Shown here piece after piece: positions 10,922-60,295 of a stretch of DNA of 64,000 bases (positions within the stretch are counted from its first letter, which is position 1; every line of letters begins with the position of its first letter). This DNA comes from Dawidia soli (lineage in GTDB: Bacteria > Bacteroidota > Bacteroidia > Cytophagales > Cyclobacteriaceae): the NCBI RefSeq assembly GCF_018598185.1, contig NZ_JAHESC010000001.1:62001-126000 (forward strand). The letters run 5' to 3'. Position numbers and translations under genes: made by a program. Under the pieces are notes generated by a model. The model made no database searches and was not told the origin of the DNA. It was given only the letters and a program-made list of their open reading frames with translations.

Positions 10922-10978
10922 TTCAGAATTTAGAACTGCTTTAGGCCGATAAAAGAGATCAAAGTTCTTTCTGTACAT

Positions 10979-11163: not shown

Positions 11164-11188
11164 ATTATGAACCAAACCAATTCAAAAA

Positions 11189-44660: not shown

Positions 44661-45290
44661 ATGCTAACCGCTATGAAACGAAGAACGATTGCTACGCCCT
44701 TGTGCTGGATACTGGGGCTGCTGGCACTGTCGGCTTTCCTGGAGAAGCCCGCGGAAGAAAAATTTGTCGTAGACACACAAGCCAGTACGCTGGTGTGGAC
44801 AGCCAAAAAGGTAACGGGGGCGCATACCGGGGCCGTGAAGTTATCCGCCGGCGAGCTGGCGCTGGAAGGCAAGGCCCTGAAGCGCGGCAGCTTCGATATC
44901 GACCTGACGTCGATCACAGTGACCGATATTACCGACCCGCAGTCGAATGCCAGGCTGGTAGGACACCTGAAGGGCGAAGACTTCTTTTCGGTCAATGCGT
45001 TTCCGAAAGCAAGCTTCGCATTGACGTCCGCTACCCCGCAGGCAGGTACGACCTACCTGGTAAAAGGCAAGCTGACGATCAAAGGCATTACCAACGACGT
45101 GGAGTTTCCCGCGTCTGTGGTAAAGGACGGCAGGAAATTAACGGCCACCGCCAGGATCGTAGTAGACCGCACGAAATATGACATTCGCTACCGGTCGACC
45201 AACTTTTTTGAGAACCTGGGTGACAAAGCCATTGAAAACGAATTTACACTTGATATTAAACTGGTAGCAGCAGCGCAAAAAGGAGTTTAG
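44661..45290 (+). CDS. YceI family protein
   Basis: A 209-residue secreted lipocalin-like beta-barrel protein, a family that binds isoprenoid-type lipids such as quinones. The N-terminal signal (RRTIATPLCWILGLLALSAF) precedes the mature domain VDTQASTLVWTAKKVTGAHT. Then come the conserved TDITDPQSNARLVGHLKGED, FFSVNAFPKASFALTSA and GITNDVEFP. The start is ATG 44661; ATG 44673 also fits. It is divergent from the MarR-GNAT gene and not clearly tied to it. The SusC operon begins 226 bp downstream. Confidence 0.9.
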   Translation: MLTAMKRRTIATPLCWILGLLALSAFLEKPAEEKFVVDTQASTLVWTAKKVTGAHTGAVKLSAGELALEGKALKRGSFDIDLTSITVTDITDPQSNARLVGHLKGEDFFSVNAFPKASFALTSATPQAGTTYLVKGKLTIKGITNDVEFPASVVKDGRKLTATARIVVDRTKYDIRYRSTNFFENLGDKAIENEFTLDIKLVAAAQKGV

Positions 45291-45515
45291 AAAAAGGGGA
45301 AAAAGGGATTCGTCGCTCTGGAAAAGTTTAGAATCTTCTTTCTCCCCCGTATCTGACCCGGCACATACTGGACGTATAGCAGGATCATCAGGCCAAGGTA
45401 GTCAATTTAGTTGAGACCCTAAAGACCTCGTTTCGTGGTCTTCCCACCCTGATGTTCGTGCTCTGGCATTGCCATGCCCCGCTGGACCACTTCATCCATG
45501 TTTCAACACTACCGC
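45291..45515. other. Upstream region of the SusC operon
   Basis: No gene is seen. An inverted repeat AAGACC (45422-45427) / GGTCTT (45437-45442) lies about 75 bp before the SusC start. No unambiguous -33/-7 pair was found. Confidence 0.4.
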
Positions 45516-48500
45516 ATGAATTCTACTTTACATTCACGCATTGATCGTCACGGTCACACGCAGCCATGGTATACCGTGCTGCTCCTGCTCGCCGGCACGC
45601 TGCTCGCGCTGTCCGCCTATGGTCAGGACGCCACCATCACAGTAAGCGGTAAAGTTACCGCTGACGACACGCAAGAGGGGATCCCCGGCGTAAACATCGT
45701 CGTAAAAGGAACCAATGCCGGCGCCATTACCGACGCCGCCGGCACCTATACGATCACGGCGCCCGCCGCCGGCACGCTGGTCTTTTCAAGCATCGGTTTT
45801 GCTTCCGCCGAGGTGGCGGTGAACAACCATACGGCGCTGAACGTCGGGTTAAAGACCGACATCAACGAATTACAGGAAATTGTGATCGTCGGGTACGACA
45901 CCCGCGAGCGCAAAGACCTGGTAGGCTCGATTGCCAAAGTAGACCCTGCCGCGACCAAAGCGATTCCCGCGGGCAGCTTTGACGCACAGCTGCAAGGCAA
46001 GATCGCCGGTGTGCAGATTGCCAGCAACACGGGCGTGCCCGGCGAGGCGGTGAATGTGCGCATCCGCGGCGTGACGTCGATCAACGCCGATGTCGACCCG
46101 CTCTACATCGTCGACGGGGTCTTTGTGAACAGCAACAGCCTGCAAAAGATCAACACCGGTGGTAAAGCGACATCGCCGATCGCCGACATCAATCCCGCCG
46201 ACATCGAGAGTGTCGAGGTATTAAAGGATGCTTCGGCCACCGCCCTGTATGGCTCGCGTGCAGCCAACGGCGTGATCGTCATCACGACCAGGCGCGGCAA
46301 CTACGAGCAGAAACCGACCATCAGCTTCAACGCCTCCCACGGCTGGGCGAAAGCCGCAAAGCTGTGGCACCTGACGACGGGCCCCGAGCACGCGCAGCTA
46401 GTGAACGAGTTTTATAGCAATGCCTATAAAGATGCCGAAACAGCCGGCAACACGGCCGATATGGCGAAGTATAAGACCGTACCGTTCCGCGCACACGACG
46501 ATCGCCCCAATGAAACGCCCGCGCCGCGTGGCCTGCCCGAAGATCAGCAGACCTACGATCGCCTGGGCGAGCTGTTCCGCACCGCGCATTTACAGAACTA
46601 CGACCTGTCACTCGCCGGTGGTACAAAGACAACCAGGTACTACATCGGTGCTGGCTATAACACGCAGGAGGCGATCATCCGCCCCATTACTTTCGAACGC
46701 GCCAGCTTTAAGGTGAATCTCGACCAGCGCATCAACGATAAAGTGCTGGTGGGCGTGAGCAATACCTTTACCCGTACCTATCGCAACCAGGCGCGCGCCG
46801 GCGACGGTCCGCAAGGTGGTTTGCTACAGTCGGCGCTGCATACGCCCACCTATATCTCGCCGTACGATGCAAACGGCGTTTTGGTAGCGGGTGGCAACTT
46901 CGACAACCTGACGCTGTTGCTGGATAACTACGACGTCAATTCCCGGAGCCTTCGTTATGTCGGCAACCTCTTCCTCGAAGCCGACCTGCTGCCCGAGCTG
47001 AAGTTCCGTACCAGCGTTGGCGCCGATTATAATAACTACGAGGAATCGGAATACTGGAATACGTTTACGACCGTGGGAGGAAAAACGGGCCTGGCCACGT
47101 CGGGGATATCGCAAAACGCCACGCTGCTCAACGAGCAGGTGCTGACGTACCGGCACACCTTCGGCAGCGCCCATACAGTCGGCATACTGGTCGGCAATAC
47201 GCTGCAAAGCGATGCTACAACACGTACGTATGCGGAGGGCTCTGGCTTTGCCAACAACTCGGTGAAGCTCATTTCACAGGCGGCCACCGTAAAGGGCTCA
47301 CAAACCTGGACCAGGAGCACGCTGGTATCATTCTTCAGCCGCTTGGATTACAACTATGCTGACAAGTATCTGCTGGATGTCAGCTTCCGGGCCGACGGCT
47401 CGTCGCGGTTTGGTGCCAACAACCGGTGGGGCTACTTCCCGTCGGTAGGTGTGGCGTGGCGTATCAAGGAAGAGGGCTTCCTGCAGGATGTGGAGACGAT
47501 CTCGGACCTGAAGCTGCGCGCAAGCTTTGGCATTTCGGGTAACCAGAACATCGGTGACTTTGCCTGGCAAGGACAATGGGGCGCCGGGGCGTCATACAAC
47601 GGCAACCCAGGTATTGCGCCCTCACAGCTGGCCAACCCCGACCTCAAGTGGGAGGAGACCCGCCAATGGAACCTGGGCCTGGACGTGACGCTGCTCGATC
47701 GTCGCCTGACATTCGAGGTTAACGCATACGATAAATATACTCACGACGGTCTGCTGAAGCGAAACATTCCTTCGAAGACCGGCTTCACGTCGATTTGGGA
47801 TAACGCCATCGAGGTGAGCAACCGCGGGTTCGAGCTCGGCATTACAACCGTCAACCTGCGCAAGACCGACCTGACGTGGACCACGTCGCTGAACGTTTCA
47901 CGCAACGTCAACAAGATCGAAAAGCTGGAAACGCCGCTGCGCTTTGGCAGCCGCGACCTGATCTTACAACGGGAAGGCTCGCCGCTGTATTCGTTCTGGG
48001 TGTATAAACAACTGTATGTCGACCCGCAGACAGGCGACGCGGTATACGAGGACGTAGACGGCGTGCCCGGCATTACGGTCAACGACCGCCAGCTGATCGG
48101 CAGCATCTGGCCAAAGTATTTCGGCGGTATCACCAACGAAGTGACGTATAAAGGCTTTGATCTGAACGTATTCTTTGCCTTCTCGTATGGCAACAAAGTA
48201 TATAATCACAACAAGTTCTTTGGAGAGGGGGGCGGGGCACGCGACGCAAGCCGGGTGATCTTTGCCAGCAACCTGGCGCGGTGGCAGAAGCCGGGTGACA
48301 TCACGGATGTACCGCGACCGCAGGTTACGAACGTCAACAACTACCGCGATGGTGGAAGTCGGTGGTTGGAAGACGGTTCGTACCTGCGGCTGCGATCCCT
48401 CACGCTGGGCTACACGCTGCCGTCGTCTGTCACGGAGCGGCTGAAGCTCGAAAAGCTGCGCATCTATGCCGTAGGCACCAACCTGTGGCTGCTGACCGAC

Positions 48501-48617
48501 TATACCGGCCTGGACCCCGAGTCCAGCTCCAGCAGCAGCCAGAATGAACCCGGCATCGACCTGGGCACACCGCCGCAACCCCGCGGCTTGCAGATCGGTA
48601 TTGACCTCAGACTTTAA
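45516..48617 (+). CDS. SusC/RagA family TonB-linked outer-membrane protein
   Basis: A TonB-dependent importer, the barrel of a SusCD pair. Starting at ATG 45516 (1,033 residues) it has a signal peptide (WYTVLLLLAGTLLALSAYG). A CarboxypepD_reg-like domain follows (ISGK-type pattern: TVSGKVTADDTQEGIPGVNI), then the plug with EIVIVGYDTRERKDLVGSI, VQIASNTGVPGEAVNVRIRG and VEVLKDASATALYGSRAANG, the classic SusC signature. The long barrel ends LGTPPQPRGLQIGIDLRL. Earlier in-frame ATGs (45474, 45498) would only lengthen the leader. SusD starts 12 bp downstream. Here the pair heads genes for sulfur oxidation, so the ligand might be a sulfonated or sulfated compound; that is inference. Confidence 0.94.
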   Translation: MNSTLHSRIDRHGHTQPWYTVLLLLAGTLLALSAYGQDATITVSGKVTADDTQEGIPGVNIVVKGTNAGAITDAAGTYTITAPAAGTLVFSSIGFASAEVAVNNHTALNVGLKTDINELQEIVIVGYDTRERKDLVGSIAKVDPAATKAIPAGSFDAQLQGKIAGVQIASNTGVPGEAVNVRIRGVTSINADVDPLYIVDGVFVNSNSLQKINTGGKATSPIADINPADIESVEVLKDASATALYGSRAANGVIVITTRRGNYEQKPTISFNASHGWAKAAKLWHLTTGPEHAQLVNEFYSNAYKDAETAGNTADMAKYKTVPFRAHDDRPNETPAPRGLPEDQQTYDRLGELFRTAHLQNYDLSLAGGTKTTRYYIGAGYNTQEAIIRPITFERASFKVNLDQRINDKVLVGVSNTFTRTYRNQARAGDGPQGGLLQSALHTPTYISPYDANGVLVAGGNFDNLTLLLDNYDVNSRSLRYVGNLFLEADLLPELKFRTSVGADYNNYEESEYWNTFTTVGGKTGLATSGISQNATLLNEQVLTYRHTFGSAHTVGILVGNTLQSDATTRTYAEGSGFANNSVKLISQAATVKGSQTWTRSTLVSFFSRLDYNYADKYLLDVSFRADGSSRFGANNRWGYFPSVGVAWRIKEEGFLQDVETISDLKLRASFGISGNQNIGDFAWQGQWGAGASYNGNPGIAPSQLANPDLKWEETRQWNLGLDVTLLDRRLTFEVNAYDKYTHDGLLKRNIPSKTGFTSIWDNAIEVSNRGFELGITTVNLRKTDLTWTTSLNVSRNVNKIEKLETPLRFGSRDLILQREGSPLYSFWVYKQLYVDPQTGDAVYEDVDGVPGITVNDRQLIGSIWPKYFGGITNEVTYKGFDLNVFFAFSYGNKVYNHNKFFGEGGGARDASRVIFASNLARWQKPGDITDVPRPQVTNVNNYRDGGSRWLEDGSYLRLRSLTLGYTLPSSVTERLKLEKLRIYAVGTNLWLLTDYTGLDPESSSSSSQNEPGIDLGTPPQPRGLQIGIDLRL

Positions 48618-48629
48618 TCATACGCATTC

Positions 48630-50015
48630 ATGAAAGCATATCGTATATACATCGGATTTTTACTGGCGCTGATCGCGGCCGCGTCCTGCGACGACTACCT
48701 GGACGTGCGGCCGAAAGAAACGATCCCCGATACAAACCCCATTTTTGATAAGACCTCGGCCGAGCAGGCCGTGCGGGCCATGTACAACAAGTTCTATTAC
48801 GGCGCTGCGTCGTATTCTGAAAACGGTACGACGTCGGGCGGCAGCCCGTCGTTCGAAGCGATCGGCTACCTTTCGGGCGGCAACGTGAAGTGGACGGGTT
48901 CACAGTCACAGATCGGCGAGTTTGAGAAACATTTTGTCAACGCCGAGAACTCGACGGTAAGCGCTACCTGGACGAACATCTACCGCGTGGTGAACCTGGC
49001 GAACAACGTACTGGCCAAGGTGCCGCTGATCACCGGCGACCCCACGCTGACCGAGGCACTGCGCGATCAATACCTCGGCGAGGCATACTTCGTTCGCGCG
49101 CTGGCATACTTTGACCTGGCGCGGGTGTGGGGCGGCGTGCCGATCATTACGAAACCGACCGAAGTAGCGACCGACAACGTCGGCATCGGCCGCGGCACGG
49201 TGGAGGAAGCGTACGCCCAGGTATTGAGCGACCTGGAGGCTGCCGAGCCCCTGCTGCCCGAGACGACAGACCGCTACCGGGCCACACGCAAGACGGTATG
49301 GGCGCTGCGCGCGCGCTACCATCTGTACCAGCGCGAGTGGGCGTTGGCCGAAGGGTATGCCGATAAGCTCATCGCCGACGAAGCGAGCTACAAACTGGTA
49401 GCGCCCTATAACTCGTTCTTCTTTCCCGCGACCGTGCGTGGTTCGGTAGAGTCTGTGCTCGAGATCTTTTTCAACGGTACCACCGAAATAAACAACCACT
49501 TCACATCGTGGCAGATTCAGGCCAACGGCGGCACGCGGCAGTGGGCGCCGAGCGACGAGATCGTGGCACTGCTGAACAACGCCGGGATCGGTGGAAACCG
49601 CAATACCCTGATCGCGAAAGATGGCTCCGGTAACTGGTACAACAATCTTTATTACCGCAAGCCTGGCGCCGACCCCGCGTTTGTCATCCGCATCGCCGAG
49701 TTATACCTGATCCGCGCGGAAGCGCGGGCACAACGGGAAAAGCTGACCGAAGCCGTGGACGATCTCGATGCCGTGCGACAACGTGCCGGCCTGGCGGGCA
49801 GCACCGCTGCCACACAACAGGAAATCCTGGATGCCATCGAGCTGGAACGCCGCGTGGAGTTTGCCTTCGAGCATCACCGCTGGTTTGACCTGGTGCGTAC
49901 GGACCGCGCGGCCGCGGTACTGAGCATCAGTGACAAAGGGCGGTACGTCATGCCGATCCCCGCCGCCGAGCGCCTCGTGGACAAGACGCTTGAACAGAAC
50001 GACGCATACAAATAG
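48630..50015 (+). CDS. SusD/RagB family nutrient-binding outer-membrane lipoprotein
   Basis: The surface lipoprotein lid of the SusCD importer, 461 residues. It has a lipobox AASC (Cys20, then DDYLDVRPKETIPDTNP, the usual SusD start). TPR helices include ALRDQYLGEAYFVRALAYFD and YLIRAEARAQREKLTEAVDD. The C-terminal region has LERRVEFAFEHHRWFDLVRT and the ending DKTLEQNDAYK. It is shorter than many SusD proteins (about 500-550). It directly follows SusC and precedes the DoxX-like pair by 30 bp. The ligand cannot be deduced. Confidence 0.93.
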   Translation: MKAYRIYIGFLLALIAAASCDDYLDVRPKETIPDTNPIFDKTSAEQAVRAMYNKFYYGAASYSENGTTSGGSPSFEAIGYLSGGNVKWTGSQSQIGEFEKHFVNAENSTVSATWTNIYRVVNLANNVLAKVPLITGDPTLTEALRDQYLGEAYFVRALAYFDLARVWGGVPIITKPTEVATDNVGIGRGTVEEAYAQVLSDLEAAEPLLPETTDRYRATRKTVWALRARYHLYQREWALAEGYADKLIADEASYKLVAPYNSFFFPATVRGSVESVLEIFFNGTTEINNHFTSWQIQANGGTRQWAPSDEIVALLNNAGIGGNRNTLIAKDGSGNWYNNLYYRKPGADPAFVIRIAELYLIRAEARAQREKLTEAVDDLDAVRQRAGLAGSTAATQQEILDAIELERRVEFAFEHHRWFDLVRTDRAAAVLSISDKGRYVMPIPAAERLVDKTLEQNDAYK

Positions 50016-50045
50016 ACGACCTTATACCCTTAACCGCTGATTGTT

Positions 50046-51446
50046 ATGAACGTGGTAGAAACCCCCGTCGCACCCGTAAAACGGGTCAAGGCCTATGCCG
50101 CTTCGCCCGTGGTGAAGCCGGCTGGCGAGCATGATCAGGCCCCTGCCTGGAAAGGTTGGGAGAAGACGGCCTTCCGCTTCTTCTTTGTGTACTTCCTCAT
50201 TCAGATCGTACCCCTCGACTGGAAATACTACCGCGACCTGTTTGAGCCGGATGGCGCCTTCCTGTCGCTGCGCGATATATTCTATGCCGCCCGTTATACG
50301 CCGCGTTTCTTTGGCGACGTGCCGGTCTTTGCCGACTGGGGCATTGCCGCGGCGCTGGCGGCGGCCGCTACGGCGCTCTGGGGTTATTGGGATCGCGAAC
50401 GCAAAGAGTATACGAATCTGTACTACGCATTGCGTGTGATCCTGCGCTACCGGTTAGCCTTTGCATTGCTGGCCTATGCCCTGATCAAGTTCTATCCGCA
50501 ACAAATGCCGCTGCCGTCGGTCGGGAACCTCAACACACATTATGGCGATATCAGCGCCTGGAAGCTCTTCTCCATGAGCACCGGTATCGTGCCCGGGTAC
50601 CAATCGTTCCTGGGCTTGGTCGAAGCGGCAGCCGCGCTGCTGCTGGTATACCGCAAGACAGCGTCCATTGGCGCGTTTATCGTGCTGCCGTTTACGGGCA
50701 ACGTGTTGATGTCGAACCTGGCGTACGAAGGCGGTGAATATGTATACAGCCTGCTGCTGATCACCTTTGCCGCGTTTGTGCTGGCGTACGATGTGCCGCG
50801 CCTCTTACGACTTACGTCGTTTGAGCTGCCGACAGAGCCCAATCGCTATCAACCGGTATGTAAGGCCGATTGGCAACGGTATGGTCGCTGGTCGTTGAAG
50901 CTGCTCTTTGTCGCGTTGGTGGGCTGGTATGGATACCAAAGCCTGCAAACCTACCGGCAGGGCGGGTACCAGTTTCCGCACGCGCCAGGCTTGGCGAACG
51001 CCGCAGGGCTTTATGACGTGCATACCTTCCGCGTCAATGGTCGCACGATATCGCCCGGCGCGACGGACGCACAACGCTGGCGTGATGTGGCGTTCGAAAA
51101 ATGGGCGACACTCAGCATCCGCACCAATCAGCCCGCACCGCTGGTGATGGCCGGCACCGAAGAGCTCTTTGCAAACGACGATGACCGTAACTACGAGTAT
51201 GCCGGTACGACCGGACGCCATTACCTGCGGTACGATGCCGACACGATAAACCGTGTGTTGACCTTCCGCGAGCGCGACAGCAAGCTGCTGACCCTGCACT
51301 ATACACGCCCGGACACCCAGACCATTACACTGGCGGGTGTTACAGCGGCAAAAGATTCGGTATACGTCGAGCTGCGCAGGATCGACAAGAGATACCTGCT
51401 CGACGAAGCGGCCAAAGTTGGCCGTCGCAGAGGACTGAAACTATAA
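50046..51446 (+). CDS. DoxX-like membrane protein with C-terminal extracytoplasmic domain (first of two)
   Basis: A 466-residue protein. Residues about 40-290 form a membrane part with several helices, containing the DoxX-type motif LIKFYPQQMPLPS (about 147-158), LLLVYRKTASIGAFIVLPF and NLAYEGGEYVYSLLLITFAA. Residues about 315-466 form a soluble domain starting DVHTFRVNGRTISPGATDAQ with RWRDVAFEKWATLSIR. DoxX-family proteins include the DoxD subunit of archaeal thiosulfate:quinone oxidoreductase. Together with the SoxC and cytochrome genes downstream this suggests a role in sulfur-electron transfer to quinone, but no direct evidence exists. It is paralogous to the next gene. Confidence 0.75.
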   Translation: MNVVETPVAPVKRVKAYAASPVVKPAGEHDQAPAWKGWEKTAFRFFFVYFLIQIVPLDWKYYRDLFEPDGAFLSLRDIFYAARYTPRFFGDVPVFADWGIAAALAAAATALWGYWDRERKEYTNLYYALRVILRYRLAFALLAYALIKFYPQQMPLPSVGNLNTHYGDISAWKLFSMSTGIVPGYQSFLGLVEAAAALLLVYRKTASIGAFIVLPFTGNVLMSNLAYEGGEYVYSLLLITFAAFVLAYDVPRLLRLTSFELPTEPNRYQPVCKADWQRYGRWSLKLLFVALVGWYGYQSLQTYRQGGYQFPHAPGLANAAGLYDVHTFRVNGRTISPGATDAQRWRDVAFEKWATLSIRTNQPAPLVMAGTEELFANDDDRNYEYAGTTGRHYLRYDADTINRVLTFRERDSKLLTLHYTRPDTQTITLAGVTAAKDSVYVELRRIDKRYLLDEAAKVGRRRGLKL

Positions 51447-51459
51447 AACGACCACTCCT

Positions 51460-53064
51460 ATGAACGAACGCAGCACATTCCGCCGCCCCTGGAAGGAATC
51501 CGAAAAGCTTGCCTTCCGGGTAGCGTTTATTTTCTTTATCAGCTTAAGCATTCCCAATAACCCGGAGTGGTATAAACATGTGTGGTCCATCGACTGGACT
51601 AACCTGCACTACCGCGACCTGTACGACATCGCGCGGTTCGGCTCGGGTCTGAACTTCTTCGGCAACGAGATCTTTGGCAGCCCGCTGGCGGGTTATGCCA
51701 ACTGGGTCATAACCCTGCTGGTGTCACTGGCCGCAGGTATTGTCTGGACAGTCGTCGATCGCATTCGCCGCAAACCGGAAGAATATAACGTATTATACTA
51801 CTGGTTGCGCGCCATCGTGCGTTATCGCGCCGGGATCGGCATCATCGGCTTTGGTTTTACCAAACTGCTGCCGGTGCAAATGCCATACCCGTCGACAGCG
51901 TTGCTCAATACCGACTTTGGTGATTTTACCGCGCAGAAGATCTACTGGCTGTCCATCGGCATTGTACCCTGGTACCAGGTGTTTGCCGGTGTTGTGGAAG
52001 TAGCGGCCGGCACCTTACTGTTTTTTCGGAAAACAACATTGTTAGGAGCAGCCTTGCTGTTTGGTGCGCTGGGTGATATCGTCTATGTGAACTTTGCTTA
52101 CGACGGCGGTGTGCACGTCTACAGCTCGTACTTTGTGTTGCTGGCAGGCTTCCTGTTGGTGCATTATATCCCGGCATTATACCGCTTGCTGATCCTGGAG
52201 CAACCGGCTAACCTGGTGTCGTTTTACCCGTACCTGGCCAAACCGTGGCAGCAGGCCGTGCGCATCGGACTCAAGTCGCTTACGATCTTGATCTTCCTGG
52301 TGGTGCTCTTTTACCTGCAACTGGTAAACTTCTGGTACGATCCGTATAAACAACCGTCTACCAAAGGTGTGACGGCATTGCGCGGATATTACAATGTGAC
52401 CGAGTTCCGTGTCAACGATCAGGCGATAGCCTACGCGCCGCTGGACTCGGTGCGGTGGTCGGAAGTGACCCTGGAGAACTGGACCACGCTGACGTTTAAA
52501 GTAAACCGCGCCACGGACCTCGACTTGTCGAACGGCGGCGGCGACCCGCAACGCGACATCAACCGCACATTCGAGCTGGCGGGTGTTGGCGGTGGCCGCC
52601 GCGTATTTCACTACTTCGCGGATACGGTCGACCATGTATTATACCTGCAAGACAAGTATAAAGCCGTACCCGACCGCCGCAACGTAACGGCCGGGGCAGG
52701 CGGCGACGGTGGCGATCCCGATGCGATACGCCTGGCGAAGAAGGGAAAACCTGAAGTTAAAAAGGAAGGCATTTACGCCGACGATTGGATCAGCCGCCAA
52801 GCCTGGGCGCATATCGGCGACGAAACCACGAAGATCAATGCCCTGGCAGCTTCGACGCGGCGCGACCGCGAGTTTGCCCGGGAAAAAGGAAAATATGATG
52901 AACGCAAGCGCATGGTGCTGCACTACGCGGTAGAGCGTGGGGGAGCGCGTGTGATCTTGCGCGGGGTTGATGAGAAACAAGATTCGTTATATGTCGTGCT
53001 GGACCGGCAGGATAAACAATACGCGCTGTCGGGCAGTACGCTGCAGGCAGGCGATTATCAGTAA
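51460..53064 (+). CDS. DoxX-like membrane protein with C-terminal extracytoplasmic domain (second of two)
   Basis: A 534-residue paralogue of the preceding protein. Shared features are the N-terminal EKLAFRVAFIFFI, LRAIVRYRAGIGIIGFGFTK, LLPVQMPYPSTALLNTDFGD (about 136-155), WLSIGIVPWYQVFAGVVEVA and LFFRKTTLLGAALLFGALGD. The soluble domain (from about residue 300, YNVTEFRVNDQAIAYAPLDS) is longer by about 65 residues. It carries a Gly-rich, charged insert (AGAGGDGGDPDAIRLAKKGK) and ends YVVLDRQDKQYALSGS. The gap to the first copy is 13 bp. The pair may form a heterodimer in the membrane. Function as above, inferred only from context. Confidence 0.75.
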   Translation: MNERSTFRRPWKESEKLAFRVAFIFFISLSIPNNPEWYKHVWSIDWTNLHYRDLYDIARFGSGLNFFGNEIFGSPLAGYANWVITLLVSLAAGIVWTVVDRIRRKPEEYNVLYYWLRAIVRYRAGIGIIGFGFTKLLPVQMPYPSTALLNTDFGDFTAQKIYWLSIGIVPWYQVFAGVVEVAAGTLLFFRKTTLLGAALLFGALGDIVYVNFAYDGGVHVYSSYFVLLAGFLLVHYIPALYRLLILEQPANLVSFYPYLAKPWQQAVRIGLKSLTILIFLVVLFYLQLVNFWYDPYKQPSTKGVTALRGYYNVTEFRVNDQAIAYAPLDSVRWSEVTLENWTTLTFKVNRATDLDLSNGGGDPQRDINRTFELAGVGGGRRVFHYFADTVDHVLYLQDKYKAVPDRRNVTAGAGGDGGDPDAIRLAKKGKPEVKKEGIYADDWISRQAWAHIGDETTKINALAASTRRDREFAREKGKYDERKRMVLHYAVERGGARVILRGVDEKQDSLYVVLDRQDKQYALSGSTLQAGDYQ

Positions 53065-53081
53065 TCAGTAAGGGAGTCGGC

Positions 53082-53732
53082 ATGCGTTCTTTATTTGGGT
53101 TAGGTACGGTGCCGGCTTCACTTATTGCCGGTCGCAACAGACCAGGGACTTTTCAGGCAGGCGGGCTGCGGGCGCTATACGTGGTGGTGTTAGTGTTCGC
53201 GCTTGCCTCCTGTTTTGGTAACAAGGAGGATACGACGGGCGAAGAAGCCTGGCCGGCAACGTCAGGGTTGGGGCGTGTGGCTACTGCCGCCGAGATCGCC
53301 AGGCTCGATATCGATGTTCGTCCGGATGGACAGGGGCTGCCAAACGGCTCCGGCACCGTGCCGAAGGGCCGGCGGCTATACCAGCAAAAGTGTGCGCGCT
53401 GTCATGGCCGCACCGGCGTAGAGGGACCGTACAACGTACTGGTCTCTATTCAGGGAGATACAACCCGTAAGAACAAACAGGAAAAGACGATCGGCGACTA
53501 CTGGCCGTACGCCAGTACCCTGTACGACTATATACATCGGGCCATGCCGTACGACAGCTCCGGGTCACTGACGCCCGGGCAGGTGTACAGCCTGACGGCA
53601 TTTCTGCTGCATGCCAACGGCATGATCGATTCGACCACGGTACTGACCAAACAGAACCTGCCGCAGGTAGTGATGCCCGCGCAGGAAATGTTTGTGCCCG
53701 ACGACCGCAAGGGCGGGCCGGAAGTACGGTAA
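53082..53732 (+). CDS. Cytochrome c lipoprotein, mono-haem
   Basis: A 216-residue secreted c-type cytochrome. A hydrophobic signal with lipobox LASC (Cys44) suggests a membrane-anchored lipoprotein. The haem site CARCH is at residues 104-108 within GRRLYQQKCARCHGRTGVEG. An axial Met (about residue 155, HRAMPYDSSGSL) is followed by the typical TPGQVYSLTAFLLHANG helix. The Gly/Met layout resembles SoxX and sulfite-dehydrogenase partner cytochromes. It starts 17 bp after the second DoxX-like gene and ends 16 bp before the SoxC-like gene, so I read it as the electron acceptor of that enzyme. Confidence 0.88.
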   Translation: MRSLFGLGTVPASLIAGRNRPGTFQAGGLRALYVVVLVFALASCFGNKEDTTGEEAWPATSGLGRVATAAEIARLDIDVRPDGQGLPNGSGTVPKGRRLYQQKCARCHGRTGVEGPYNVLVSIQGDTTRKNKQEKTIGDYWPYASTLYDYIHRAMPYDSSGSLTPGQVYSLTAFLLHANGMIDSTTVLTKQNLPQVVMPAQEMFVPDDRKGGPEVR

Positions 53733-53748
53733 CACGAGGAGGTTTTTT

Positions 53749-55026
53749 ATGAAGCAAGATAACGAAGGGATCCAGCACAATACAACGGCACCGGTACACA
53801 CGGGTACCGTAATGAAACGACGTACCTGGCTGGGAGGGGCGGCTACGGCAGCCGTTGTATTGGTGCAAACAGCGTTTGGCAAACGGCTGCAGGCCGCGGT
53901 GACCGAAGCGGAGAAGACCCTGGAGGATACTACCAAGAGGTTGGGCACGCCGCCCGGGGTATTGGGTACGCGTTCACCGTTTGAAACACCGCACAAGAAG
54001 CCGTCCGATACATCGTCGCGTACGCCGTTGCAGGATCTCTACGGCATGATCACGCCGTCCGATCTGCACTTCGAGCGCAACCATGGCGGCGTGCCGCGGA
54101 TCGACCCGCAACACCATGAGCTGATGATCCATGGCATGGTGGAGAAACCGATGATCTTTACGGTGGCGGAGCTGAAACGCTTCCCCTCGGTATCGCGGAT
54201 CTGCTTTGTTGAATGCTCCGGTAATTTTCGCGGCGGCAGCGAGGCGCTCACGCCGCAGGAGATTTGTGGCCTGACGAGCCAGAGCGAATGGACGGGCGTC
54301 ATGCTCTCCACGTTGTTTCGCGAGGTGGGCGTGAAGCCTGCGGCGGCGTGGTTCCTGGCCGAAGGTGCCGACGCGGCCGTGATGACGCGCAGCGTGTTGG
54401 TGAGCAAGGGGTGGGAGGACGCGATGATCGTCTACGCGCAGAACGGCGAAGCGATCCGGCCCGAACAGGGATACCCGCTGCGGTTGTTGCTGCCGGGGTG
54501 GGAGGGTAACACCAGCGTGAAGTGGCTGCGCCGCATCGAGCTGTCGGACCAGCCCTTCATGACGCGCGAGGAGACATCCAAATACACCGAGTCGATCGGT
54601 GGCGGCAAGGTGCGGCAGTTCAGTTTTGTGATGGATGCCCGTTCGATCATTACATTTCCCGCGTACCCGGCACATGTCGGCAAGGGCTGGATCGAGATAC
54701 GAGGCCTGGCCTGGAGTGGCCGGGGCAAAATTCAGGCGGTGGAGGTGAGCACCGACGCCGGCAAGACCTGGGCGCCCGCGCGCCTGCAGGAGCCGGTACT
54801 GGACAAGGCGCACACCCAATTTCGCTATATATGGCAGTGGAATGGTGAAGAGACTGAAATTATGAGTCGTGCAATCGATGAAACCGGTTATATTCAGCCT
54901 ACTTTTCGTCAGCTTTCGGACGCCCGCGGGGGAAGTAAAGGTGGCTATCACTTTAATCCCGTCACGGCGTGGCGCATCAAGCGTACCGGCGAGGTACTGC
55001 TGCAGCCGGAAGCGGGAAGAAGGTGA
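53749..55026 (+). CDS. Sulfite dehydrogenase, SoxC/sulfite-oxidase-family molybdoenzyme
   Basis: A periplasmic molybdenum-cofactor enzyme that oxidises sulfite or a related sulfur compound, about 425 residues. A twin-arginine signal is visible (KRRTWLGGAATAAVVLVQTA; Arg24/Arg25), preceded by about 20 extra residues. The Mo-ligating Cys156 lies in RICFVECSGNFRGGSEAL. The motif SDLHFERNHGGVPRI and QEICGLTSQSEWTGV are typical of SoxC. The C-terminal dimerisation domain has WIEIRGLAWSGRGKIQAVEV. A strong AGGAGG at 53737-53742, 6 bases before ATG 53749, fixes the start, although ATG 53812 is possible for the Tat signal alone. It probably donates electrons to the cytochrome c gene product. SoxC function is inferred from family. 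Confidence 0.88.
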   Translation: MKQDNEGIQHNTTAPVHTGTVMKRRTWLGGAATAAVVLVQTAFGKRLQAAVTEAEKTLEDTTKRLGTPPGVLGTRSPFETPHKKPSDTSSRTPLQDLYGMITPSDLHFERNHGGVPRIDPQHHELMIHGMVEKPMIFTVAELKRFPSVSRICFVECSGNFRGGSEALTPQEICGLTSQSEWTGVMLSTLFREVGVKPAAAWFLAEGADAAVMTRSVLVSKGWEDAMIVYAQNGEAIRPEQGYPLRLLLPGWEGNTSVKWLRRIELSDQPFMTREETSKYTESIGGGKVRQFSFVMDARSIITFPAYPAHVGKGWIEIRGLAWSGRGKIQAVEVSTDAGKTWAPARLQEPVLDKAHTQFRYIWQWNGEETEIMSRAIDETGYIQPTFRQLSDARGGSKGGYHFNPVTAWRIKRTGEVLLQPEAGRR

Positions 55027-55042
55027 TCAAATAGGTAACGAC

Positions 55043-56488
55043 GTGGGGAAAACAGAATATGACGCAATCGTAGTGGGATCGGGGCCGAACGGCCTGGCCG
55101 CCGCGATCACTTTGCAGCAGGCGGGATGCTCGGTGTTGCTGATAGAAGGGAAAGATACCCTGGGTGGCGGCATGCGCTCGGAAGCGCTGACGCTGCCGGG
55201 CTTTACGCACGATGTATGCTCGGCCATACACCCGCTGGCGATCGCATCGCCGTTCTTCTGCAAGCTGCCGCTGGAAAAGCACGGCCTGCGATATATCCTG
55301 CCCGACATTGCGGCGGCCCACCCCTTGGAAGACGGTAGCGAAGCTTTTCTCGACATGTCGCTCGATGTGACCGCCCGCGCGCTGCGCCGCGATGAGCACG
55401 TCTATCGCCACCTGATCAAACCCGTAGCCGATACCTGGCCGCACCTGGCCGAAGATGTGCTGGGACCGCTGACCATACCGCGCCACCCCGTGGCCATGGC
55501 CCGGTTTGGCGTAAATGCGCTGCGTTCAGCCAACGCCATTGCACGTCGCTTTTCTACGCCGCAAGGCAAGGGTCTCTGGGCCGGTATGGCCGCACACGGC
55601 ATACAACCGCTGAGCAATCTCTCATCGGCTGCTATCGGGTTGGTGCTGATGGCAAATGCGCATATAAAAGGGTGGCCGGTGCCGGTGGGCGGATCACAAT
55701 CCATCGCCAACGCGCTGGTGTCATACTTTAAGTCGCTTGGCGGAACCATCCAAACGGAGTTCTTTGTCAGCAACCTGGGCGACCTGCCTTCGGCGAAGGC
55801 CGTGCTGCTGGATGTCACGCCGCGCCAGCTGTTGCAGATCGCGGGCCACACGTTCTCGTCGTTCTATACCTGGCAGCTGCAACGCTATCGCTACGGCATG
55901 GGTGTCTTTAAGGTCGACTGGGCACTGAACGGACCCGTGCCCTTTACCGCACCGGCCTGCCGCATCGCCGGTACCGTGCACCTGGGCAACACGTTTGAAG
56001 AGATTGCCCGGTCGGAATATGAGACTTCCACCGGCCGGCATGCAGACAAGCCGTTCGTACTGCTGGCACAACAAAGTATATTTGACCCCACACGCGCCCC
56101 CGCCGGGCATCACACCGCGTGGGCCTATTGCCACGTGCCGCACGGCTCGACGCGCGACATGACAGAGGCCATTGAAAAACAGGTCGAGCGGTTTGCTCCA
56201 GGCTTCCGCGACCGCATCATCGCGCGGCATACCATGAACACGCTGCAGATGCAGGAGCACAACCCCAACTATATCGGCGGCGACATCAACGGGGGAGTCA
56301 TTGATCTCGGGCAGCTTTTTACACGGCCCGCGCTGCGCTTCTCGCCGTACCGTACCTCCGCCAAAGGCATCTATATCTGCTCGTCGTCTACGCCGCCCGG
56401 TGGGGGGGTACACGGCATGTGCGGATTTCATGCCGCCCGCCGGGCCTTAAACGATATTTTTAGACATACATTTTTTTCGATCCGATAA
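55043..56488 (+). CDS. FAD-dependent oxidoreductase, phytoene-dehydrogenase-like
   Basis: A 481-residue flavoprotein with the Rossmann motif AIVVGSGPNGLAAAITLQQA (Gly12, Gly14, Gly17), LLIEGKDTLGGGMRSEAL and a C-terminal ICSSSTPPGGGVHGMCGFHA typical of COG1233 carotenoid-desaturase-like oxidoreductases. Starting from the GTG at 55043, 16 bp after the SoxC stop, gives a normal N terminus. The longer open frame from 54869 lies mostly inside the SoxC gene. No carotenoid genes surround it, so a different substrate is likely, for example an organic sulfur compound or quinone-linked step. That is conjecture. Confidence 0.8.
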   Translation: MGKTEYDAIVVGSGPNGLAAAITLQQAGCSVLLIEGKDTLGGGMRSEALTLPGFTHDVCSAIHPLAIASPFFCKLPLEKHGLRYILPDIAAAHPLEDGSEAFLDMSLDVTARALRRDEHVYRHLIKPVADTWPHLAEDVLGPLTIPRHPVAMARFGVNALRSANAIARRFSTPQGKGLWAGMAAHGIQPLSNLSSAAIGLVLMANAHIKGWPVPVGGSQSIANALVSYFKSLGGTIQTEFFVSNLGDLPSAKAVLLDVTPRQLLQIAGHTFSSFYTWQLQRYRYGMGVFKVDWALNGPVPFTAPACRIAGTVHLGNTFEEIARSEYETSTGRHADKPFVLLAQQSIFDPTRAPAGHHTAWAYCHVPHGSTRDMTEAIEKQVERFAPGFRDRIIARHTMNTLQMQEHNPNYIGGDINGGVIDLGQLFTRPALRFSPYRTSAKGIYICSSSTPPGGGVHGMCGFHAARRALNDIFRHTFFSIR

Positions 56489-56498
56489 CCACCTGGGT

Positions 56499-57830
56499 AT
56501 GAGCAACACAACAATCGCCAAAGAAAGAACCCCGCTACACGAAGATTGGGCCGTCGTGGTCCTCGGCTTCCTGATCATTGCCATCAGTTTTTTTTACCTC
56601 GTGCCTGTACCGGCCTATAGTTGGAAAGATGCCGAGGGCCTGGCCGACGTATTGGCAAAGGCCAACCTCGGCGCGATCCTCGTGCAGTTCCTGTTTGTAT
56701 TTGTCCTGGGCCTGTTTGGCGCGTGGTTGACGGGAAAATCGGTGACGGCATTTGTGAAGGCGTTTCCGCTGATCGCCGTGCTGACGATAGTGGCATTGAT
56801 CATTGCCGGCAACAGCGGCATCAAGGGGCTGGGCCTCGAGGCGGTGATCTTCAGTCTTTCCATCGGCTTGCTGGTGAGCAATACCATCAAGTTGCCCGAC
56901 TGGTTCCGCGCGGCATTGACCGCCGAGATGTTTGTAAAGATCGGCCTCGTGCTGCTGGGTACATCGGTGATCTTTACCGACATTCTCACCGCCGGTTCCC
57001 TGGGACTTATCCAGGCCCTGGTGGTGGTGGTATCCGTATGGTACTTTGCCTTCTGGGTGTGCAGGAAGTTTAAGCTCGACGGAGAGCTGACCATGATGTT
57101 GTCAAGCGCCGTATCGATCTGCGGCGTATCTGCGGCGATTGCCACTGCCGGTGCCATCAAAGGCGACACAAAGAAACTTTCGTATATCATTTCCCTCGTG
57201 CTGATCACCGCCATTCCTATGATGATCTTTATGCCGTACATCGCCCGCTACTTCCATTTTCCCGAAGCGGTTACAGGCGCCTGGCTCGGGGGCAGCATCG
57301 ATACAACGGGAGCAGTAGTGGCGTCGGGCACGCTGGTGGGAGAAACGGCGCTCAAGATTAGTACCATCGTCAAGTTCTCGCAAAACGTGCTGCTGGGACT
57401 GGCAGCATTTGCTATCAGTCTCTACTGGACCTATACCAACGAAGGAAAGACCCAGGATGCCGCCAGACAGCCCACCTTGGCCGTGATCTGGGAACGCTTT
57501 CCGAAGTTTGTACTGGGCTTCATCGCAGCATCGTTGTTATTTACGTTCCTGTCCTCGGGCGGATCGATCATCGGGTTCAGCAAACTACACTTGGAGTTTG
57601 AAATACCGCATGTGATCTCGAAGGATGCCCTGAAGCCGATAACAAAAAACCTGAAGAGCATCCAACTGTTGTGGTTTGCCCTGGCGTTTACCAGCATTGG
57701 ACTCGAAACCAAGTTCTCTGACCTCTTCAACGCCGAGAGTCGCAAGCCGCTTTATGCATTTCTGATCGCACAGCTGTTTAATATTATCGTGACATTGATC
57801 ATTGCCTTTATCCTCTTCGGAAATGCCTGA
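56499..57830 (+). CDS. YeiH family putative sulfate exporter
   Basis: A 443-residue membrane protein of the YeiH/UPF0324 'putative sulfate exporter' family with about ten helices. Visible are AGNSGIKGLGLEAVIFSLSI, LLVSNTIKLPDWFRAALTAE, GTSVIFTDILTAG, LSSAVSICGVSAAIATAGAI and TGAWLGGSIDTTGAVVASGT, hallmarks of the family. The gene starts 10 bp after the FAD gene, closing the operon. Its presence next to a sulfite-oxidising enzyme agrees with exporting the sulfate formed. Transport direction and substrate are family-level predictions. Confidence 0.88.
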   Translation: MSNTTIAKERTPLHEDWAVVVLGFLIIAISFFYLVPVPAYSWKDAEGLADVLAKANLGAILVQFLFVFVLGLFGAWLTGKSVTAFVKAFPLIAVLTIVALIIAGNSGIKGLGLEAVIFSLSIGLLVSNTIKLPDWFRAALTAEMFVKIGLVLLGTSVIFTDILTAGSLGLIQALVVVVSVWYFAFWVCRKFKLDGELTMMLSSAVSICGVSAAIATAGAIKGDTKKLSYIISLVLITAIPMMIFMPYIARYFHFPEAVTGAWLGGSIDTTGAVVASGTLVGETALKISTIVKFSQNVLLGLAAFAISLYWTYTNEGKTQDAARQPTLAVIWERFPKFVLGFIAASLLFTFLSSGGSIIGFSKLHLEFEIPHVISKDALKPITKNLKSIQLLWFALAFTSIGLETKFSDLFNAESRKPLYAFLIAQLFNIIVTLIIAFILFGNA

Positions 57831-57948: not shown

Positions 57949-57955
57949 ATTGCTC

Positions 57956-59269
57956 ATGAATGGCATAACCGCCACCGCCACGCTGAATAACCCCCGCACC
58001 GTACGGGCTTGGTACATGTTTGACTGGGCAAACTCGGTGTATTCGCTGATCATTATCACGGCCATTTTTCCGATCTACTACAAGGAAGTAGCAGTATCGA
58101 GTGGCACGGACCAGGTGAACTTTCTGGGTTTTACGTTGCAGAACTCGGTGTTGTATTCGTACGCCCTGTCGTTCTCCTTCCTGGTCGTAGCGGCCATCCT
58201 GCCGTTGCTCTCCGGCGTGGCCGACTATACAGGCAGGAAAAAGACTTTTATGAAGATCTTTGTCTGGCTCGGAAGTTTATCGTGCATGGGACTATACCTC
58301 TTTGAAAACGTATCGTGGTTGGAATGGGGCATTGTATGTTCCATCCTGGCAAGCATAGGGTACTCTGGCAGCCTGGTGTTTTACGACGCCTTCCTGCCCG
58401 AGATCGTAACCCGCGACCGTTATGACGCGACCAGCGCGAACGGTTACTCCATGGGGTATTTCGGCAGCGTGCTGCTGATGGTCATTTGTACCGTGCTCAT
58501 TCTGGGCGCAGATACCTTTGGCTTTACAGAAGGTGAGGCTACACGCTTTTCGTTTTTGCTGGTAGGCGTATGGTGGATAGGTTTTTCGATGATACCGTTT
58601 GCCTTGCTGCCGGAGAATGTCGCGGAGCGCAAGCTGGAAGGCAGCAGCATCTGGACGAAGGGCTACGAGGAGATCCGCAAGGTGTGGCGCAGCCTGCGTC
58701 AGCAGCCCGACCTGAAACGCTATCTGTTCGCATTTTTCTTTTACAACGGCGGTGTGCAAACCGTGATGTACCTGGCTACGTTGTTCGGCACCGATGTACT
58801 GCATTTAGGCACCACCAGCCTCATCGCTACCGTCGTGATCATACAATTGGTCGGGATTCTGGGAGCATGGCTTTTTGCACGCCTGTCGCAAGCCAAAGGC
58901 AACCGCTTTTCGCTGACGGTCATGATCATGATCTGGATCGGCATCTGCGTCAGCGCGTACTTTATCACGACAGAGTATGAGTTTTATATCCTGGCATTTG
59001 TCGTGGGCATGGTGATGGGCGGCATTCAATCGCTGTCGCGCGCAACCTATTCCAAGCTGATCCCCGACAACACGATCGATCACGCGTCATACTTCAGCTT
59101 CTACGATGTGACATATAATCTCGCCATTGTGTTTGGTACTTTCTCTTATGGATTTATCGATCACCTGACCGGCAGCATGCGATATAGCGCGCTGGCACTG
59201 GCGTTGTATTTTATTGTTGGCGGAGCAGTGTTGTTTACGGTCAGGACGAAAGCGATTCGGAAAGCCTAG
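57956..59269 (+). CDS. MFS transporter, UMF1/Atg22-like
   Basis: A 437-residue twelve-helix major facilitator. The start RTVRAWYMFDWANSVYSLII and PEIVTRDRYDATSANGYSMG are typical of the UMF1/'vacuole effluxer Atg22-like' class. The loop SGVADYTGRKKTFMKIFVWL is the MFS signature between helices 2 and 3. The C-terminal half has GGIQSLSRATYSKLIPDNTI. ATG 57956 is chosen over the TTG two codons earlier. It faces the PIN toxin gene and its end is 4 bp from it. Substrate unknown. It follows the sulfur operon but has its own candidate promoter. Confidence 0.87.
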   Translation: MNGITATATLNNPRTVRAWYMFDWANSVYSLIIITAIFPIYYKEVAVSSGTDQVNFLGFTLQNSVLYSYALSFSFLVVAAILPLLSGVADYTGRKKTFMKIFVWLGSLSCMGLYLFENVSWLEWGIVCSILASIGYSGSLVFYDAFLPEIVTRDRYDATSANGYSMGYFGSVLLMVICTVLILGADTFGFTEGEATRFSFLLVGVWWIGFSMIPFALLPENVAERKLEGSSIWTKGYEEIRKVWRSLRQQPDLKRYLFAFFFYNGGVQTVMYLATLFGTDVLHLGTTSLIATVVIIQLVGILGAWLFARLSQAKGNRFSLTVMIMIWIGICVSAYFITTEYEFYILAFVVGMVMGGIQSLSRATYSKLIPDNTIDHASYFSFYDVTYNLAIVFGTFSYGFIDHLTGSMRYSALALALYFIVGGAVLFTVRTKAIRKA

Positions 59270-59273
59270 TGTG

Positions 59274-59843
59274 CTATAGCAGGGCCAGGAGCCTTTTACT
59301 GGTCAGTGGCAACCCACATTTTTCCAACGTGGCGAGTACCTGCAGGTAGGTCTTGGAAGGGTTTCTTAGATATGACACTTGTTGCTTGAATGCCCGAATA
59401 GATTCGGTAGGATTCAGGTCAATCACATTCGAAATAAACACATCGGGGTGTTGCGCCTCTATATCAAATTCCCGCAGGTAGCTATTCGGAAAATCCTTCG
59501 TATTAGAGGTAACGATAAGCTCTGCCTGGCAGCGAATGGCTGCCGCCAGGATATGCCGATCGTCGGGATCGGGCAAGGTAAAGGAGGAAACGAGCGCTTC
59601 GTATCGTTCGACATTGGCATCGGGAAACGCCGTGTTCATACTGTCTACCGTCTTTTGCAATTGTCCCACGGTAATGTCGGGGCGATTTTGGAGTAGATTC
59701 CGGATCCATTCGTGCTGAATCGTATCCGTCCACTTGGGTTTATACAGCTCGACTGCCGCGAGGTGTAACAGCAAGTCTCTCACAGGCGCGGGATAGAGAA
59801 CACAAGCATCGAGGATAACAGTGAAACGGGGGGAGTGGATCAT
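59274..59843 (-). CDS. PIN domain toxin (VapC-like RNase)
   Basis: A 189-residue PIN-fold protein with Asp12 in TVILDACVLYPAPVRDLL, acidic PDPDDRHILAAAIRCQAELI and SNTKDFPNSYLREFDIEA, which supply the conserved acidic metal site of these RNases. It is longer than classical VapC (about 130). Its start overlaps the stop of the upstream HTH-protein gene by the ATGA pattern, as in toxin-antitoxin operons. It probably cleaves RNA when freed from the antitoxin. Target unknown. Confidence 0.82.
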   Translation of the reverse strand: MIHSPRFTVILDACVLYPAPVRDLLLHLAAVELYKPKWTDTIQHEWIRNLLQNRPDITVGQLQKTVDSMNTAFPDANVERYEALVSSFTLPDPDDRHILAAAIRCQAELIVTSNTKDFPNSYLREFDIEAQHPDVFISNVIDLNPTESIRAFKQQVSYLRNPSKTYLQVLATLEKCGLPLTSKRLLALL

Positions 59844-60295
59844 TCGTAGCCTAAACTCAAATCTTGAGCCTGCTGAGCCAGCTGTTTGAGGCTTGCAGTG
59901 CGCTGATCCTTTTGTTTGGCCTCATAGGCGACCAGATCTTCTAATAAGATCCTTCTGTGGCTGCCTACTTTTTTATAGGGGATCAAACCTTGCTCTAATA
60001 ATTTTACAACGTGAGGCCTTGATACATTCAGCATGTCAGCCGCTTGCTGCGTACTGACCTCTGCTTCTGACGGAATGAGTGTGATGGATTTTCCTTCGGC
60101 CATATTGGAAAGAATGTCAAACAACAATTCAAGCGCCTTGCCCGGAACGGTCACAAACTCGTCACTTTCCTGAATCTTGATCTTTACAACGTTGGGCTTC
60201 TTTTTCAAGAAAGCTGCTGTAGAGTTCAAGGCAGAAATTGACTTGGTTGCAATTTCCTGATCTTTCCGTGTCGTCCGCTGAATTACCGTCTCCAT
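59840..60295 (-). CDS. HTH antitoxin with excisionase-type DNA-binding domain
   Basis: A 151-residue protein. The C-terminal half (about 80-135) is an excisionase/MerR-like HTH: STQQAADMLNVSRPHVVKLL, then YKKVGSHRRILLEDLVAYEA. The N-terminal part is helical (about residues 1-75) with a beta-rich VKIKIQESDEFVTVPGKALE. The PIN-domain toxin follows in an overlapping frame (ATGA). Helical C-terminal tail SLKQLAQQAQDLSLGYE may wrap the toxin. It would repress its own promoter and neutralise the PIN protein. The pair is AT-richer than its neighbours, typical of acquired modules. Confidence 0.83.
   Translation of the reverse strand: METVIQRTTRKDQEIATKSISALNSTAAFLKKKPNVVKIKIQESDEFVTVPGKALELLFDILSNMAEGKSITLIPSEAEVSTQQAADMLNVSRPHVVKLLEQGLIPYKKVGSHRRILLEDLVAYEAKQKDQRTASLKQLAQQAQDLSLGYE

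Follow-up and report, generated by a model that had tools for sequence, protein, structure and literature searches.

An operon of eight genes in Dawidia soli joins a SusCD-type outer-membrane importer to a pair of paralogous proteins that we call Dox1 and Dox2, a cytochrome c, a SoxC-clade molybdoenzyme, an FAD oxidoreductase and a relative of YeiH. These eight genes are one conserved, modular unit, whose arrangement is kept across families beyond chance. We tentatively read the operon, with a confidence that falls just short of even, as a sulfur-acquisition locus in which SusCD would import a sulfur compound, sulfite would be released from it, and the YeiH relative and the SoxC/cytochrome pair would handle the sulfite. 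It lies within the 64,000-nucleotide stretch analysed here (the window; contig NZ_JAHESC010000001.1, positions 62,001 to 126,000) of a 7.48-Mb genome, and the nearest named relative that we found, Parachryseolinea silvisoli (Cytophagales), shares 85–92% identity across the operon. L and G numbers are our labels for loci and genomes. In window coordinates, the genes are:

45474..48617, + strand: SusC/RagA TonB-linked outer-membrane transporter (TIGR04056; alternative start at 45516 possible)
48630..50015, + strand: SusD/RagB lipoprotein lid (PF14322, PF07980)
50046..51446, + strand: Dox1, helical, putatively membrane-type protein with a C-terminal lipocalin-like beta barrel (structure model; no Pfam family)
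51460..53064, + strand: Dox2, a Dox1 paralogue whose C-terminal part is longer (sequence comparison)
53082..53732, + strand: monoheme cytochrome c with a lipobox-like N-terminus, relative of SoxD (PF13442, one CxxCH, 2xts_B)
53749..55026, + strand: SoxC-clade molybdoenzyme with a Tat-type signal and a CSGNFR motif (TIGR04555, tree)
55043..56488, + strand: FAD oxidoreductase of the phytoene-desaturase/CrtO class (nearest CrtO)
56499..57830, + strand: YeiH/PF03601-family membrane transporter (PF03601; 11 hydrophobic segments)

The gaps between these genes are 12, 30, 13, 17, 16, 16 and 10 bp, confirming the order, single strand and 10–30-bp spacing given in a preliminary description made from the DNA letters. 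The longest open reading frames (ORFs) of SoxC and the FAD oxidoreductase run into the preceding genes, so the shorter starts at 53749 and 55043 (GTG) were used. Family models and motif scans likewise bore out the earlier calls of SusC, SusD, a cytochrome with one CxxCH and a Tat-type SoxC with a Mo-Cys motif. Window SusC scored 844.7 bits on TIGR04056 (cut-off 368.25) and adjoins a gene recognised by the SusD family models, which together identify a SusCD importer; its best solved relative is 8aa4_A, and the solved structures nearest to SusC and SusD give no hint of the ligand. Pfam and NCBIfam revealed no carbohydrate-active enzyme among the eight window genes, which thus do not qualify as a polysaccharide-utilisation locus. 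Promoter and terminator scans at both operon ends, of a kind that suits Bacteroidota poorly, found nothing.

Dox2 and SoxC occur together. In a sample of 196 genomes of the family, SoxC was found at E < 1e-60 in seven and Dox2 at E < 1e-60 in five, all of them within the seven; with the window's own genome excluded (195 left), the four with Dox2 all fell inside the six with SoxC (Fisher p 2.6e-7). The overlap was looser in a class-wide sample of 395 genomes, with Dox2 (E < 1e-60) in four, SoxC in three and both in two, one of these two being the window's own genome. The preliminary description had proposed a search for the same gene order in relatives as the check on its reading: that order is unchanged in G156 and G160, and no failure of co-conservation was seen (all five Dox2 genomes of the 196 have SoxC). 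From beside the operon, YeiH is missing in G177 and the FAD gene in G132.

A Dox2 profile scan of the genome collection confirmed at least 88 relatives, of which 80 form our Dox2-selected loci, spanning families such as Fulvivirgaceae, Spirosomataceae, Chitinophagaceae and Sphingobacteriaceae. With gene presence scored by preset identity thresholds, and Dox2 present by construction, these 80 loci held SusC in 74, SusD in 74, Dox1 in 80, the cytochrome in 58, SoxC in 58, the FAD gene in 61 and YeiH in 38, always on the strand of Dox2 except for one FAD and one YeiH gene; the complete set of eight stood on that strand in 17. At identical thresholds, zero operon genes were found around 18 distant Dox-like genes taken as controls. 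The most constant block is therefore SusC-SusD-Dox1-Dox2, and SoxC lies outside this constant core. Gene order varies: in many Chitinophaga cytochrome-SoxC precedes SusC, and in several Pedobacter and Mucilaginibacter FAD-YeiH stands ahead of cytochrome-SoxC. Among 40 SoxC-selected loci, drawn from 63 SoxC-bearing genomes among 200 of the family of G507 and overlapping partially in genomes with the Dox2 sample, Dox genes lay on the same strand and no more than eight ORFs away in 35.

S-adenosylmethionine (SAM) riboswitches, or S-boxes, stand ahead of the operon in some of these relatives. An Rfam search covering the window and 26 loci placed RF00162 above the gathering score 5' of the operon in five relatives: L033 (78.0 bits), L034 (62.6 bits; contig shared with L043), L042 (69.3 bits), the SoxC-less L110 (86.4 bits) and L177 (73.7 bits), a Hymenobacter plasmid with SusC, SusD, Dox1, Dox2 and YeiH. 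An S-box switches its operon on at low SAM, and these leaders, with the control that they would exert, favour sulfur acquisition over energy metabolism as the role of the operon. A covariance model built from four S-box sites and run over 144 sources gave eight hits in one run and three in another. Five of the seven distinct hits of the eight-hit run lead operons, for which the rough positional chance is 1e-6 for a 1.5-kb stretch, in a calculation where three of the five had helped to build the model and which leaves out three hits ahead of a second SusC (L246, L253 and L258); one hit, in L115, is on the opposite strand. PstS-like proteins, below the Pfam cut-off, are encoded between S-box and SusC in L033 and L035/L042.

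Several S-box observations stand apart from these leaders. In L246 (6342-6441, −), L253 and L258 the S-box precedes a second SusC-SusD pair located after YeiH and only 33% similar, perhaps another sulfur-linked SusCD type, and a second S-box in L042 (14869-14971, +; 72.4 bits) lies directly behind YeiH, ahead of genes with no assigned function. On the Hymenobacter volaticus plasmid (L177:7957-17024, +), the annotation splits SusC into pieces and its sequence spans more than one reading frame; YeiH, for which no gene is annotated, matches in two frames. Either decay or sequencing error would account for this.

By sequence, the SoxC/cytochrome pair is kin of SoxCD and not of SorAB, and no SoxY or full-scoring SoxB accompanies it in its genomes. 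Window SoxC scored 482.8 bits on TIGR04555, above the cut-off of 420 that defines the SoxC equivalog (613.9 bits for the sox-operon SoxC of L188). It resembles SorA and SorT in being a periplasmic molybdoenzyme with an adjoining cytochrome c and an arginine in the corresponding position following the Mo cysteine, but belongs to the SoxC clade and scores far below their NCBIfam cut-offs (129.8 against 600 bits and 119.9 against 570 bits, respectively). The nearest solved relatives of both subunits are found in 2xts, which we take to be SoxCD of Paracoccus: 2xts_A (SoxC) for the molybdoenzyme (E 2e-89) and 2xts_B, the sole match, for the cytochrome (E 1e-38).

The pair nevertheless differs from the Sox system in several respects. 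The cytochrome is monoheme, with one CxxCH in 58/58 against two in both sox-operon SoxD examined, and so is not a diheme SoxD; a loose pattern detects a lipobox-like motif in 29 of the 58. SoxY was absent from all 26 SoxC-bearing genomes (the operon is present in 25; the other is G045), a set holding no positive control, while the same model matched 4/4 sox plasmids and one further plasmid. SoxB above the 550-bit cut-off was found in 0/26, a set without a known-SoxB control genome, with lesser matches of up to 250.8 bits in 12. In a 49-row tree, whose bootstrap had not converged, Bacteroidota SoxC with or without Dox neighbours fell in one starred group (98/99), apart from the four sox-operon enzymes (100/100).

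A Tat motif was detected in all 57 operon SoxC (the window and 56 loci) by a broad pattern and in 52 by a narrower one. All 57 carry C[SA]GN[FY]R, whereas sox-operon SoxC has CAANxG in 4/4; four Sor-type enzymes have C[GA]GNGR, with the arginine at the matching place. The arginine of the operon enzymes aligns with Arg190 of chicken sulfite oxidase, and Arg190 of sulfite oxidase contacts the sulfite oxygens (PMC5856855, in excerpt). Oxidation at the sulfite level by the pair, in the periplasm, is therefore predicted as probable.

Relatives of this enzyme also occur outside Bacteroidota. Paracoccus ferrooxidans has both a sox-operon SoxC (L188) and, on another plasmid, a nearer relative (hit H17); the two carry the identical annotation 'sulfite dehydrogenase'. 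P. pantotrophus and P. versutus have the nearer kind beside a cytochrome, with no sox genes nearby. Ten proteobacterial regions with standalone SoxC were opened, of which four (L179, L182, L184 and L185) have sulfonate-type neighbours and six (L176, L178, L180, L181, L186 and L191) do not. An Allomeiothermus plasmid (L183:416-4850, +) carries in one run a rhodanese gene, one annotated as translation initiation factor 2, and genes for FAD oxidoreductase, SoxC and cytochrome; SoxY lies elsewhere on it.

Dox1 and Dox2 had been called DoxX-like in the preliminary description, which linked them to DoxD-type thiosulfate:quinone chemistry. The two genes stood, and the Hymenobacter relative of Dox1 bears the annotation 'DoxX family', but the DoxX/DoxD Pfam domains found no match in either window protein. 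Dox1 had no Pfam match up to E 5, Dox2 had only three (E 0.064–0.2), all under cut-off and none from the DoxX group, and neither had an NCBIfam match at 0.001. No alignment column of 113 Dox sequences holds cysteine in more than 30%, which counts against thiol chemistry; K148, E193, R203, E351 and E384 are invariant or nearly so. DoxDA is a thiosulfate:quinone oxidoreductase, and the proteins here resemble it at the level of the DoxX-group name only, differing in their lack of a Pfam match and of a conserved cysteine and in an extra beta barrel; the thiosulfate:quinone assignment is not supported.

A structure model of Dox1 from the 113 sequences (mean confidence, pLDDT, 91.3) shows long helices and a strand-rich C-terminal part; an earlier model from five sequences (pLDDT 40.2) was not used. 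Foldseek's best matches were weak, to lipocalins and designed barrels (E from 0.015) and to vitamin K gamma-carboxylase (E from 0.046), all with TM scores by query length below 0.3; as none fell below E 0.001, no function was read from the fold. Aligning the Dox and HTTM profiles with hhalign gave one 30-column match (p 0.018; 0.15 with a smaller alignment), a PDB profile search with the Dox alignment returned only four polo-like kinase sequences (E 0.78–0.86), and a Dox2 search of viral contigs found no relative. A strict hydropathy scan detected only two segments in Dox1 and four in Dox2, so their location in the membrane is suggested by the model. Dox2 of SoxC-less loci appears shorter, judged from match ends. 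The 18 control loci (L139–L156) hold a distant single-copy Dox-like family of about 400–460 residues and 25–34% identity, scattered in Bacteroidia in different neighbourhoods.

The FAD-binding protein is nearest to CrtO, at 118.5 bits against a cut-off of 1000, and inspection by eye found no export signal. The YeiH family is tied experimentally to sulfite: a Salmonella yeiH mutant is sulfite-sensitive and not sulfate-sensitive (PMC12880088, in excerpt), and in Hyphomicrobium a YeiH named as a sulfite exporter is one of the two genes with the largest increases on thiosulfate (526- and 66-fold; PMC12423496, in excerpt). The preliminary description had assigned sulfate export to this gene. That assignment is not supported, given this tie to sulfite and because SoxC works in the periplasm, where the sulfate that it makes needs no inner-membrane exporter; export of sulfite to the periplasmic oxidase would be the simplest coupling.

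Other sulfur-linked genes recur near the operon. SsuD-like luciferase-like monooxygenase (LLM) genes and amino-acid permeases lie near SoxC in 5/40 loci; L250, L260 and L264 also have Dox-type genes, whereas L228 and L232 lack them, as does L175. The LLM proteins scored 246.6 bits (L175) and 220.1 bits (L264) on TIGR03565, below its cut-off of 518.2, and 29 genomes chosen independently of this gene held three close relatives and one distant. Runs of SusD, amidohydrolase, SsuD-like LLM, amino-acid permease, cytochrome and SoxC were seen in L228, L232, L175, L250 and L260, one of them on a Spirosoma plasmid. The L175 locus of Spirosoma oryzicola matches the window in having SusCD, cytochrome and SoxC in one run, but has the amidohydrolase, LLM enzyme and permease where the window has Dox1-Dox2. 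This exchange, which rests on L228 and on L232/L175 (very probably one plasmid, both 219,293), is our main reason for placing Dox upstream of sulfite.

Further neighbours include molybdenum-related genes between Dox2 and cytochrome-SoxC in L058 (MoaA, ModA and ModB, with ModC-, MoeA- and MoaE-like genes), rhodanese or MBL-rhodanese genes in L056, L087, L108, L109 and L157, an OAH sulfhydrylase within the operon of L248 and, by similarity, in L077, DASS anion symporters in 5/40 and 1/80 loci, and Rrf2 regulators in 5/120. S51 cyanophycinase-like peptidase genes occur near the operon in 9/80 and 12/40 loci (for example L063:7606-8487), several of them between SusD and Dox1.

From these observations we infer a scheme of reactions, transport directions and substrate. 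An organosulfur compound would cross the outer membrane through SusCD, whose import of a sulfur compound we consider probable. Dox1-Dox2 and the FAD enzyme would process it and release sulfite, a place that the amidohydrolase, SsuD-like monooxygenase and amino-acid permease may take beside SoxC in some relatives. Cytoplasmic sulfite, judging from the family, would leave through the YeiH relative, and in the periplasm the SoxC-clade enzyme and monoheme cytochrome would turn it into sulfate, a step proposed because of the enzyme family, the active-site arginine and the lack of SoxY and SoxB. The sulfate would then be harmless and available for cysteine and methionine synthesis, and where an S-box stands at the 5' end, as in the five relatives, it would turn on expression of the operon under SAM shortage. 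The uptake-and-oxidation system of the preliminary description survives in this scheme as one unit, with probable SusCD import and probable periplasmic sulfite-level oxidation; what changes is the emphasis, since SoxC stands outside the constant core and the S-boxes point to acquisition. We also raise, as a speculative idea that is rather unlikely to hold in full, that Dox1-Dox2 would be a new two-subunit membrane enzyme (a helical bundle with a lipocalin-like barrel, possibly menaquinone-linked) that cleaves a C–S bond in the imported organosulfur compound together with the FAD enzyme, forming the core of a 'sulfur utilisation system' that is SAM-riboswitch-controlled in some carriers. Such loci would be a SusCD class living on sulfur instead of sugars, in which an SsuD-type monooxygenase can replace Dox1-Dox2.

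Several findings weigh against the acquisition reading. It is not obvious why a sulfur-starved cell should oxidise sulfite ahead of assimilation. SoxC is absent from 22 of the 80 Dox2-selected loci, with a close SoxC elsewhere in the genome for five and none found for 17 (two of these having distant sulfite-oxidase relatives only), yet FAD and YeiH both remain near Dox in 12 of the 22, in one case with YeiH on the opposite strand, so sulfite oxidation is not the core. Neither Rfam nor the covariance model found an S-box near the window operon, which thus lacks an RF00162 leader, the covariance model found none in most of the 144 sources, and no SsuD-like relative was found in the window genome at E <= 1e-20. 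The 'YeiH exporter' of the preliminary description does belong to the wider PF03601 family, but at 75.8 bits falls below the TIGR00698 cut-off (232.6) and is remote, sharing 23% identity with E. coli YeiH across 354 columns. The motif arginine is missing from SoxC of L036, L037 and L160 and from all ten proteobacterial standalone enzymes; four of these ten adjoin sulfonate-type genes, so the arginine is no sure mark, and its absence from that group weakens the acquisition reading and strengthens a sulfane rival. The chicken sulfite oxidase arginine preceding SVKWLRR, presumably Arg450, is a threonine in window SoxC, which tells against a simple sulfite reading, and a simple reading of the arginine motif is further undercut by a report that sox-operon SoxCD itself oxidises sulfite (PMC5336275, in excerpt).

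There are four rival explanations. Were the locus dissimilatory, the periplasmic oxidation of sulfite from an imported organosulfur compound would supply electrons, sulfate being the waste product and YeiH disposing of a sulfur oxyanion; the gene content and the presence of the pair would fit, as would the sulfonate-type genes beside standalone SoxC-cytochrome in four of the ten proteobacterial plasmid regions. This account we hold to be unlikely, for the five relatives carry S-box leaders, SoxC is dispensable and periplasmic sulfate leaves an inner-membrane sulfate exporter without a role. Sox-operon SoxCD oxidises sulfane sulfur on SoxYZ, and the operon pair, whose closest solved relatives are SoxC and SoxD, might oxidise sulfane (persulfide) sulfur on a small thiol or other carrier, consistent with the rhodanese or MBL-rhodanese genes near the Dox operons of L056, L087, L108 and L157. 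We think this decidedly unlikely given the SoxY count of 0/26, the position of the enzyme outside the sox-operon clade, CSGN[FY]R in place of CAANxG and a monoheme rather than a diheme cytochrome.

A detoxification system for sulfite or reactive sulfur, joined to an importer for nutrients in general and lacking a sulfur substrate of its own, would draw on the sulfite resistance that YeiH confers in Salmonella (PMC12880088, in excerpt) and on the removal of sulfite by SoxC. It would leave the most constant block, SusC-SusD-Dox1-Dox2, to be explained, along with the S-box leaders and the LLM, amidohydrolase and permease modules, and is improbable. Least credible is a function apart from sulfur, in which the importer and Dox proteins would handle, for example, a peptide or lipid and the molybdoenzyme would act on another substrate: the S51 cyanophycinase-like genes, the lipocalin-like barrel of Dox1 and the CrtO-like FAD enzyme agree with it, while the S-box, SsuD-like, OAH-sulfhydrylase, rhodanese and molybdenum-cofactor neighbours speak against it.

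Like the preliminary description, which recognised no such system, we found no described system of this content in the open-licence PMC literature, judged by titles and abstract openings among the matches listed. SusCD systems are for the most part interpreted as importing glycans, phosphorus being a recent exception. In the PusCD phosphate utilisation systems of Flavobacterium (PMC8115612, in excerpt), SusCD pairs for a nutrient other than carbon are clustered with releasing enzymes and inner-membrane transporters, as would be the case here; the operon differs in having sulfur-linked genes instead of phosphatases and, in some carriers, S-box leaders, and we propose it, by its gene content, as a sulfur counterpart of PusCD. 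Salmonella YeiE/YeiH sulfite resistance (PMC12880088, in excerpt) offers a PF03601 membrane protein linked to sulfite, whereas the more distant YeiH relative here is coupled to an importer and an oxidase, with no LysR-type gene among the eight. If the acquisition reading is true, nutrient-importer systems known for sugars and phosphorus extend to sulfur; a sulfur-linked SusCD locus of wide occurrence in Bacteroidota would supply a function for the unclassified Dox family and a role for SoxC/cytochrome pairs annotated 'sulfite dehydrogenase' without a Sox pathway, and how Bacteroidota obtain organic sulfur would become directly testable in cultured strains.

Two genes flank the operon in the window, outside the conserved unit:

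44661..45290, + strand: YceI-like protein, 183 bp upstream (in 1/80 loci)
57950..59269, + strand: MFS/ATG22 transporter, 119 bp downstream (in 1/80 loci)

The YceI, MarR-GNAT and MFS genes were rejected as candidate operon members, since each was found in 1/80 loci. Elsewhere in the window, two overlapping genes at 59274-60295 (−) resemble a PIN-domain protein and a small DNA-binding protein and, judged by eye, may be a toxin–antitoxin pair, and a cobalamin riboswitch (RF00174, 102.6 bits) at 10974-11168 (+) lies 20 bp ahead of a 766-residue ORF at 11189-13489.

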